Assembly (NCBI RefSeq): GCF_017873555.1
Contig: NZ_JAGGKE010000003.1
Location: 124,001 to 188,000 of the forward strand
Reading direction: 5' to 3'
DNA from: Halorubrum trapanicum
Lineage (GTDB): Archaea; Halobacteriota; Halobacteria; Halobacteriales; Haloferacaceae
DNA: 64,000 nucleotides
Numbering within the stretch: position 1 is the stretch's first letter; every line of letters starts with the position of its first letter. Below, one piece after another: positions 43,099 to 45,039 of the stretch. Both the position numbers and the translations under genes were made by a program. Under the pieces are notes generated by a model, which saw only the letters and a program-made list of their open reading frames with translations, searched no databases and was not told the DNA's origin.

Positions 43099-44211
43099 AT
43101 GGAAACTGCCCACGATATTTTCATCGGGAACTCGCACTCGCTGTCAGAGATAGAGGACGACGGTGTCGAACTCGTCGTGACTTCTCCGCCGTACCCGATG
43201 ATCGAGATGTGGGACGACCTCTTCTTCTCGCTGAACGCAGACATCGAAACGTCTCTCGACGACGGTGACGGTCGGCGGGCCTTCGACCTGATGCACGAGG
43301 AACTCGCCAAGACGTGGGACGAAGTCGAACGGGTCCTCGTTGACGGCGGCATTGCGTGTATTAATATCGGAGACGCGACTCGGAAGGTGGACGACAGTTT
43401 CAGAGTCTACCAGAACCACGCGCGTATCACCGAGTACTTCGACGACATGGGGTTCGAACCCCTCCCGGACATCCTCTGGCGAAAACCCGCCAACTCGGCG
43501 GCGAAGTTCATGGGATCGGGGATGATGCCGCCGAACGCGTACGCGACGCTCGAACACGAGTACCTGCTCGTCTTCCGGAATGGGAAACAGAGCCGAGAGT
43601 TCCCGTCCGGGAACGACGTCCGATACGAGTCGGCGTACTTCTGGGAAGAGCGTAACGAGTGGTTCTCAGACGTCTGGGAAGACGTTCGCGGAACGTCTCA
43701 GGAGCTAGCGGACGCCGATACCGAACTCAGGGACCGTTCGGCCGCGTACCCGTTGGAAATCCCGTATCGGCTCATCAACATGTACAGCGTCTACGGTGAC
43801 ACCGTTCTCGACCCGTTCTGGGGAACCGGAACGACCTCTCTGGCGGCGATGATCGCCGGCCGGAACTCCGTCGGCTACGAACTCCGAGAAGAGTTCACGG
43901 AGGTCTTCGACGCCGCTGTTTCCGAGGTTGCGGAGCTCGCTCACGCCACGGTGTCGAAACGAATTCGAGACCACGAGGAGTTCGTCGAGCAACGCTTGGA
44001 AGACGGCAAGGAGTTCAAATACGACGCCGAAAACTACGACTTCCCGGTCACGACGAAACAAGAGAAGCTGCTCCAACTCTACACGATCGACGACGTCGAG
44101 CAGACGGCGGACGGATACACCGTAACGCACACACCGTACAACGAATCCGAGTCAATCGCCTCAGGATCGGGAGATCAGGGACAGGCAACCCTCGGAAGTC
44201 AGTTCCAGTAG
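43099..44211 (+). CDS. Predicted CTAG-specific N4-cytosine DNA methyltransferase
   Basis: 370 residues, beta-class amino-methyltransferase order: catalytic TSPPYPMIEMWDD near residue 30, then a long variable region, and the SAM-binding DPFWGTGTTSLAAMIAGR near 235. The TSPPYPMI(E)MWD motif is characteristic of MjaI/MthZI/Zim-type enzymes that modify CTAG, where the SPPY form implies N4-cytosine. It protects DNA against the preceding nuclease, 50 nt upstream. Most haloarchaea carry only an orphan CTAG methylase; here it is paired with its nuclease. The C-terminal 90 residues are helical and acidic. Confidence 0.88.
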   Translation: METAHDIFIGNSHSLSEIEDDGVELVVTSPPYPMIEMWDDLFFSLNADIETSLDDGDGRRAFDLMHEELAKTWDEVERVLVDGGIACINIGDATRKVDDSFRVYQNHARITEYFDDMGFEPLPDILWRKPANSAAKFMGSGMMPPNAYATLEHEYLLVFRNGKQSREFPSGNDVRYESAYFWEERNEWFSDVWEDVRGTSQELADADTELRDRSAAYPLEIPYRLINMYSVYGDTVLDPFWGTGTTSLAAMIAGRNSVGYELREEFTEVFDAAVSEVAELAHATVSKRIRDHEEFVEQRLEDGKEFKYDAENYDFPVTTKQEKLLQLYTIDDVEQTADGYTVTHTPYNESESIASGSGDQGQATLGSQFQ

Positions 44212-44246
44212 TTTCCCCCAAAGAGTTCGAACCGCGCCCCTCCACA

Positions 44247-44300
44247 CCTGCGGCTCGCGAGTTGCTCGCCGCAGGAAGTGGGCTCGGGCGGGTTCGAACC
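44247..44300 (-). repeat. Partial tRNA-Val 3' end with trailer hairpin, duplicate copy
   Basis: The 24 bases AGTGGGCTCGGGCGGGTTCGAACC at 44277-44300 (given here as two parts: AGTGGGCTCGGG and CGGGTTCGAACC) repeat the 3' end of the tRNA-Val gene at 44424-44447. Both copies are preceded on the plus strand by a hairpin: here CCTGCGGC/GCCGCAGG (44247-44275) with loop TCGCGAGTTGCTC. The whole unit is a tandem duplicate of 44389-44450, a typical scar of integration at a tRNA 3' end, though no integrase gene is nearby. Confidence 0.65.
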
Positions 44301-44354
44301 TCGGTCGCTCCCGTTCGCTCGCTGCTCGCGGCTTCGCCGCTCGCTCACCTCCCG

Positions 44355-44379
44355 CTCCCTGCTTCGAACCCGCCCTCGA
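44355..44379 (+). repeat. Inverted fragment of the tRNA-Val T arm
   Basis: TTCGAACCCGCCC at 44363-44375 is the exact reverse complement of GGGCGGGTTCGAA in the duplicate at 44286-44298, so the two could pair across about 65 nt of G/C-rich repeats (GCTCGCTGCTCGCGGCTTCG). It indicates repeated rearrangement beside the tRNA. Confidence 0.45.
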
Positions 44380-44388
44380 ACACGCACG

Positions 44389-44422
44389 TTGCTGTCGCTC
44401 GCGGAGTTGCTCGCGACAGCAA
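44389..44422 (-). terminator. Trailer hairpin of tRNA-Val
   Basis: TTGCTGTCGC (44389-44398) pairs perfectly with GCGACAGCAA (44413-44422), loop TCGCGGAGTTGCTC. It begins four bases past the tRNA 3' end on the transcribed minus strand. The loop is nearly the same as in the duplicate unit, while all the stem bases differ but still pair. It may terminate or process the tRNA transcript. Confidence 0.5.
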
Positions 44423-44425
44423 TAG

Positions 44426-44499
44426 TGGGCTCGGGCGGGTTCGAACCGCCGATCTCAGCCTTGTAAAGGCCGCGTCATAACCAGCTAGACCACGAGCCC
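44426..44499 (-). tRNA. tRNA-Val (anticodon UAC)
   Basis: 74 nt. The acceptor GGGCTCG pairs with CGAGCCC, discriminator A, no encoded CCA. The D arm is GTCTAGCTGGTTATGAC, the anticodon arm CGGCC-TTTACAA-GGCTG (anticodon TAC), and the T arm GGCGG-TTCGAAC-CCGCC. The D arm contains one of the window's few CTAG tetramers (44485-44488), in a place where sequence is constrained by RNA function. Its 3' end is duplicated about 150 nt downstream on its own strand. Confidence 0.95.
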
Positions 44500-44559
44500 T
44501 CACCGAAACAACCCTCCGAGAGCGGAAAACGATTTCCTTCCGCGACGCGAACCTCGACC

Positions 44560-45039
44560 GTGAACCGCCGCCTTATCGGGGTCCCGGCCGCCCTCGCGCT
44601 GATCGCCCTCGCCGGAGCCGCCGTCGCCGCGACGACCCCGGCCCTCCTGATCACCGGCTACGACACCGCCACGGTCGAGGCCGTCGACGGCGACACCGGC
44701 GAGTCGCTCGCGACCGTCGACGCCCGGGTCGCGGACGGCTTCGTGAAGCGGTACGTCGGGCTCTCCGCGACCGAGGAACTCGGCGAGCGCGAGGGGATGT
44801 TGTTCGTCCACGCCGACTCCGCGGAGCGCGCCTACGTGATGCGCGACATGGTGTTCGCGCTCGACATCGTCTTCGCCGACGCGAACGGGACCGTCACGAC
44901 GATCCACGAGGCGGCGCCGGAGTCGCGGCCGCTCACCCGCTACGAGGGGACCGGGCGATACGTCCTCGAAGTGCCGCGCGGGTGGAGCGACCGTCACGGG
45001 GTCGACCGGGGCGACCGACTGGTGATCGACCGGTCGTGA
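44560..45039 (+). CDS. DUF192 family secreted or membrane-anchored protein
   Basis: 159 residues. An N-terminal hydrophobic segment (LIGVPAALALIALAGAAVAA) acts as signal or anchor. The DUF192 core follows: VARVADGFVKRYVGLSATEE-type region (VKRYVGLSATEEL), GMLFVHADSAERAYVMRDM, DIVFADANGTVTTIHEA, and LEVPRGWSDRHGV. Family members are small beta-sandwich proteins of unknown function; the M-x-D-M-x-x-x-L-D-I motif is the usual hallmark. It starts at GTG 44560. It is divergent from the tRNA-Val gene, with 60 nt between. Confidence 0.85.
   Translation: MNRRLIGVPAALALIALAGAAVAATTPALLITGYDTATVEAVDGDTGESLATVDARVADGFVKRYVGLSATEELGEREGMLFVHADSAERAYVMRDMVFALDIVFADANGTVTTIHEAAPESRPLTRYEGTGRYVLEVPRGWSDRHGVDRGDRLVIDRS

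Follow-up and report, generated by a model that had tools for sequence, protein, structure and literature searches.

A possible integron-like system in Halobacteria: hairpin cassettes at the 3′ ends of tRNA and protein genes

In integron recombination, DNA is cleaved at G|TT. The features of the integron attC site are described in PMC8946536. The haloarchaeal arrays that we report here resemble integrons in their tandem cassettes, G|TT boundary, reordering and first-position effect, and they show elements similar to those of attC: imperfect palindromes with paired boxes, a pairing-averse spacer and a variable tip. Relative to the crossover, however, the haloarchaeal arm is on the opposite side from that of attC, and the palindrome stands at the start of the cassette. 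Unlike integrons, the haloarchaeal system is archaeal and comes without IntI, its arrays follow tRNA or protein genes at their 3′ ends, and its cassettes mostly lack genes, each carrying a gene end. By this analysis the arrays would work like an integron and not be one by membership, since no IntI was found in the 30 genomes searched.

Archaeal elements that integrate into tRNA genes by tyrosine recombinases, reviewed in PMC8371274, also use the tRNA 3′ end as their site and regenerate it with incoming DNA. Their tandem accretion likewise gives tandem copies in which the tRNA 3′ end is duplicated and the tRNA stays intact. In contrast, the haloarchaeal unit is a ~100-bp non-coding element with a class-wide core, one edge at every tRNA and no integrase. 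The MITEs and PATEs of Haloquadratum (PMC3119063) are likewise mobile haloarchaeal sequences that are short, palindromic and without coding content, whereas the present cassettes have copies of gene ends, tRNA specificity and arrays. Quasi-palindrome correction and concerted evolution could keep arms and stems Watson-Crick paired, but leave the motif, site and distribution of the haloarchaeal unit unaccounted for.

The window, the whole 64-kb stretch of DNA analysed here, carries tRNA-Val(tac) on the minus strand (44425..44499). Read along that strand, the tRNA is followed by a hairpin, an inverted T-arm, a core, a second tRNA end, a second hairpin, the start of another arm and a methyltransferase gene. 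The trailer hairpin of the inserted unit (HP1, TTGCTGTCGC/GCGACAGCAA, 44389..44422, minus) leads to a reverse-complement copy of the T-arm, or rc arm (TTCGAACCCGCCC, 44363..44375, minus), to a GC-rich core of type C (GCAGGGAG...GAGCGAGCGGCGAAGCCGCGAGCAGCGAGCG...GACCGAG, 44301..44362, minus) and to an exact second copy (44279..44299, minus) of tRNA positions 53-73, which in the gene itself occupy 44426-44446. Beyond it stand a second hairpin (CCTGCGGC/GCCGCAGG, 44247..44275, minus), like the tRNA-adjoining trailer at an empty site in a congener (G007), and the remnant of a further rc arm (44225..44239, minus; GTTCGAACCGCGCCC on the plus strand), cut off by restriction-modification (R-M) genes. 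The 22-base tRNA 3′ end GGTTCGAACCCGCCCGAGCCCA has two exact matches, 44426-44447 inside the tRNA and 44279-44300 beyond it; allowing up to four mismatches, we found no third site in the 64-kb window. The initial annotation had described a unit occurring twice, with trailer hairpins whose stems differ and still pair and with an inverted T-arm fragment between. The hairpins bear this out: both stems, different in sequence, are fully paired, with DNA folds of −12.7 kcal/mol (z −4.1 versus shuffles) at 44389-44422 and −9.9 kcal/mol (z −2.7) at 44247-44275. The arm fragment does lie between, at 44363-44375, and the 22-mer is indeed found twice, but there is only one full copy of the unit, beside the tRNA itself. 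Since the hairpin and inverted arm at 44225-44275 abut the methyltransferase gene, another unit was probably truncated there. When Rfam covariance models were run over 44150-44560, the tRNA alone reached the gathering score.

The adjoining R-M genes, both on the plus strand and both probably incidental neighbours, encode an MjaI-type (CTAG) restriction endonuclease (PF09568, 42386..43048) and an N6/N4 DNA methyltransferase (PF01555, 43099..44211). We compared 23 tRNA-Val loci, those of the window's own genome and of 22 congeners, and found one to three tRNA-end copies at 19 and none or a truncated copy at four. A methyltransferase lies within 1.5 kb of tRNA-Val at two loci only, in the own genome and in G017, where the rc-arm remnant joins the R-M genes at the same junction as in the window; 17 of the 19 array-bearing congeneric loci have none nearby. 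The methyltransferase is therefore a neighbour of the array, probably incidental, and not its cause, and the idea that the R-M genes were cargo of the tRNA duplication was dropped. The initial proposal that the tRNA 3′ end has repeatedly been a place of integration or copying, with its structure conserved, is right and applies far beyond this locus; its proposed tie to the CTAG R-M genes finds no support. The window holds a second restriction gene next to a tRNA, a SacI-type endonuclease (PF09566, 27922-29016) that precedes tRNA-Leu(caa) by a few hundred bases.

The tRNA-Val arrays turn over within the genus. The empty site that had been suggested as a check exists in G007, where the tRNA is followed by a hairpin remnant resembling the window's distal hairpin and then by an ABC permease gene that also flanks the window's tRNA-Val locus. 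The same permease gene flanks unlike cores (types A and C) in G016 and G022. Trailers and cores, whose type names we assigned by eye, run alpha-A then beta-C in G010 and beta-C then alpha-B in G020. G009 has identical units in tandem, and in G004 an 800-bp AT-rich stretch with an ORF for a 182-aa membrane protein separates two tRNA-Val copies. Other tRNAs show similar events: behind tRNA-Arg(gcg) in locus L383 (G055), two identical 134-bp tandem units, which are a recent duplication, are joined by a third, diverged one, and at tRNA-Ile in L345 (G257) the core is inverted between inverted arms, as though the arms had recombined. Units are single or arrayed, with an array period of ~120 bp (range 95-250), and six intercopy gaps span 0.4-2.4 kb, several holding genes (methyltransferase, regulators, a TnpB fragment).

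In the window's own genome, ~14 of 43 distinct tRNA genes have their 3′ end repeated 77-170 bases downstream (threshold, 18 of 24 alignment points). In nearly all of these the gene's own T-arm also appears, inverted, between the two ends; a few further tRNAs have the inverted arm alone. Core types A and B share a motif composed of a variable stem, G(T/A)CGCAGCG, a variable apical stem, CGACCGTC and a variable stem. Followed by GTTCRA, this pattern occurs across the class, in 247 of 392 genomes (one per species) and 66 of 86 genera, and a reversed-pattern control matched in none of the 392. Within the GTTCRA set, 101 of 110 loci lie behind a same-strand tRNA, spanning 37 anticodons. The core pattern freed of the GTTCRA demand matched 48 of 99 genomes (control, zero), and these core-only matches stood close behind a same-strand tRNA at 22 of 30 and 37 of 42 inspected loci. 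A species-wide scan of 84,980 named species genomes matched at least 120 stretches, all of them haloarchaeal, by record title or taxonomy, among the matches listed; no unit was found in viral contigs. Most of these statistics rest on types A and B, and the window's core, being of type C, does not have the GTCGCAGCG motif; judged by its shared edge, arms and hairpins and by interchange at the same tRNA site, the type C unit appears to belong with them. We found no description of such tRNA-end repeats in Rfam or in the open literature searched, and this family of short non-coding cassettes, present across haloarchaea behind tRNAs and a few protein genes, is apparently undescribed. Even with no enzyme, it is a conserved DNA element of a whole class.

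The edges of the duplicated stretch are sharp. In a biased sample of 168 copy-bearing tRNA loci, the identity of tRNA and copy is at or near background at positions 49-51, ~0.99 from G53 through position 71 and.95 and.93 at positions 72 and 73, and then falls to 0.61, 0.53 and 0.40 over the next three bases. The copy thus begins at G53 and stops at the discriminator base. Copies evolve along with their tRNA: of 850 positions that distinguish it from the same tRNA of other genomes, the copy sides with the own tRNA at 767 and with the others at 43. The rc arm tracks the copy over positions 53-65 and no further. Hairpin pairing therefore does not call for identity at 66-73, which must have another cause, namely function as a tRNA end.

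Cassettes also stand behind protein genes, and these exceptions to the tRNA pattern proved decisive. In genus g40 the host gene, presumably of the enolase superfamily, ends in ...VDGETLFDEA-stop; four of the examined g40 loci have no array. The cassettes, x of 58 nt, y of 50 nt and b of 70 nt, start with TTCGA(C/T) and end in G; b carries the class-wide core, and G|TTCGA boundaries occur in six genomes and one paralog. Their order is permuted: x-b-y plus a final copy in G065, x-b plus a final copy in G249 and y-x-b in G331, with y in first place in G121 and in a paralogous gene of G363. Downstream copies mostly encode F-D-[E/P]-A with an in-frame stop in 12 of 15, and they show synonymous codon changes and use all three stop codons. 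The actual C-terminus is supplied by the first cassette, and gene ends across g40 read FDEA, FDPA or FDGA; the G055 gene itself ends in FDPA, the b-type ending, and the G121 gene in FDGA. The coding meaning is kept, the differences are synonymous and the same endings are real ends elsewhere, which fits exchange of cassettes carrying gene ends; preserved protein endings are predicted neither by a decaying target duplication nor by a tRNA-processing RNA. Every cassette's inverted arm corresponds to the ending which that cassette carries (x, CGACGAGGC/GCCTCGTCG; y, GATGAAGC/GCTTCATC; b, CGACCCC/GGGGTCG), and pairing of the rc arm with the downstream copy was rejected on this match. A second protein host, which we take to be a sulfite/nitrite-reductase-like gene, ends in ISGDD-stop in G337 and has a copy ending in VSGGD-stop.

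We consider the best explanation, with a probability of roughly 0.6, to be that Halobacteria widely share a recombination system whose non-coding cassettes are exchanged at G|TTC, and that the unit is one of them. Each cassette would start at the TTC of a T-loop-like site, either G53|TTCRA in a tRNA or G|TTCGA near a stop codon, and would bring its particular form of the host gene's 3′ end, together with an arm in reverse complement and one hairpin or two, before closing with G. Crossover at G|TTC would let cassettes join, leave or swap places, and the tRNA or protein would take its functional end from whichever cassette comes first. The G|TTC edge common to 37 anticodons and protein genes suggests that the crossover is sequence-specific; it may be a site-specific reaction on folded or palindromic DNA, carried out by a host tyrosine recombinase acting in trans. 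The fuller proposal, a class-wide integron-like system in which a host tyrosine recombinase swaps hairpin cassettes at G|TTCRA and renders tRNA and protein 3′ ends modular, is tentative, and we place it somewhat short of an even chance. If true, essential tRNA 3′ ends across a whole archaeal class would be repeatedly supplied by exchangeable DNA cassettes, and both the standing of tRNA genes as integration hot spots and the evolution of integrase att sites and integron-type folded sites would become testable questions in genetically tractable haloarchaea.

The permuted order could, against cassette exchange, come from deletions in a longer repeated array by short-repeat recombination, with x-b-y and y-x-b both readable as deletions from y-x-b-y. 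Old gene-end insertions might have been duplicated, deleted or converted passively at short direct repeats, by slippage or by RecA/RadA recombination, with no dedicated enzyme now, and the identical tandem units of G009 and L383 and the short direct repeats are consistent with this. We nevertheless regard passive recombination as unlikely, because the same G53/GTTC left edge appears at 37 anticodons and in protein genes, the covarying core is conserved in many types, and the spread is class-wide and reaches unrelated genes. A separate objection bears on exchange of whole cassettes: cores are common to different tRNAs (mean similarity.765 for the same anticodon versus.746 for different ones), a sharing that simple whole-cassette exchange would yield only by creating hybrid tRNAs.

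The stems of the core covary. Two positions are Watson-Crick in 105/109 with three to four pair types, where shuffling expects 40-44, and apical pairs are Watson-Crick in 61/63 and 53/54. Spacer positions −6 and −7 pair in 6/109 and 4/109, against shuffle expectations of 28 and 7. The tip is usually GA-2bp-C(GNA)G-2bp-GA, with GNA in 74 of 91; a tip of this form is a stable DNA mini-hairpin. In core stems G-T is as rare as other mismatches; tRNA acceptor stems at the same loci show 43 G-U versus 4 other mismatches (10.8 to 1). Since G-T is not favoured in core stems, the evidence speaks for DNA-level pairing, or for one arm being copied from the other, rather than for RNA. It falls short of proof, and G-T is common at position 54 of the rc arm (53/209). 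This bears on an RNA structure derived from the tRNA precursor, with the rc arm and extra end as anti- and anti-anti-T-arm steering maturation, a proposal that accommodates same-strand units close behind tRNAs, the conserved structure and the very stable RNA fold that tRNA and unit form together (z −5.1), in which the rc arm pairs with the tRNA's own T-arm. It is quite improbable: beyond the core stems, which favour G-U no more than other mismatches, it leaves over the exactness of 66-73, and units also stand behind protein genes with coding meaning kept, while most tRNAs of the same genome have none. On these same grounds an RNA-guide or tRNA-processing role was set aside.

Within arrays the last copy is more diverged than the internal ones (mean mismatches 2.07 versus 1.03; exact copies 35/70 versus 60/90, p = 0.036). 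This gradient, the sharp edges at 53 and 73 and the cores common to several tRNAs would suit a miniature transposon inserting behind the tRNA 3′ end with a 21-bp target duplication (53-73). Such an origin is very improbable, as the protein-gene copies differ synonymously and by stop codon and recur as real ends elsewhere, and neither terminal repeats, judged by reading, nor a transposase was seen.

If cassette exchange has an enzyme, a 343-aa tyrosine recombinase (L271:1444-2475, minus strand) is a candidate, and it is equally likely to be the chromosome-dimer enzyme. It is XerA/XerC-like, below those curated cut-offs, and single-copy in every one of the 80 good genomes searched within the order; because it is universal, it gives no co-occurrence evidence. 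The IntI integrase (TIGR02249) scored above cut-off in 0 of 30 genomes, and the own genome gave no match. No integrase lies near the unit-bearing tRNAs of the own genome and no recombinase was linked to the arrays; at tRNA-Val(tac), where the initial annotation saw no integrase, there is none, and the genome's tyrosine recombinase matches are on other contigs. Own-genome integrases were rejected as a cis source, one belonging to a separate island at tRNA-Val(cac) and none lying near unit-bearing tRNAs. That 9.25-kb island (L310, G000:C2:178900-192900) carries a tyrosine integrase and an Eco57I-type R-M protein, has a 30-bp att at tRNA positions ~44-73, and shows that this genome also harbours an integrative element of the conventional kind. 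If the repeated integration of the annotation meant viruses or plasmids that enter tRNA genes in the conventional way, their remnants might account for the tRNA 3′ duplication and the 0.4-2.4 kb of cargo between copies at six loci, with this island as a genuine example. Such remnants are exceedingly improbable, because the units' left edge is always G53 versus an island att starting near 44, and a conserved non-coding unit stands at a third of tRNAs and was found in no viral contig.

The core motif also turns up away from tRNA genes. At L293 and L295 (G040 and G044) it lies between two genes of an operon, presumably for arginine/lysine biosynthesis; the inverted arms there are different and a tRNA is absent. 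L015-L017, L048 and L308 show a further GC-rich repeat of haloarchaea that is present in multiple copies, GTGGCGCGTGCC...GGGGAGGCGTGAGGTGC, and one copy of it contains the core of the tRNA unit.
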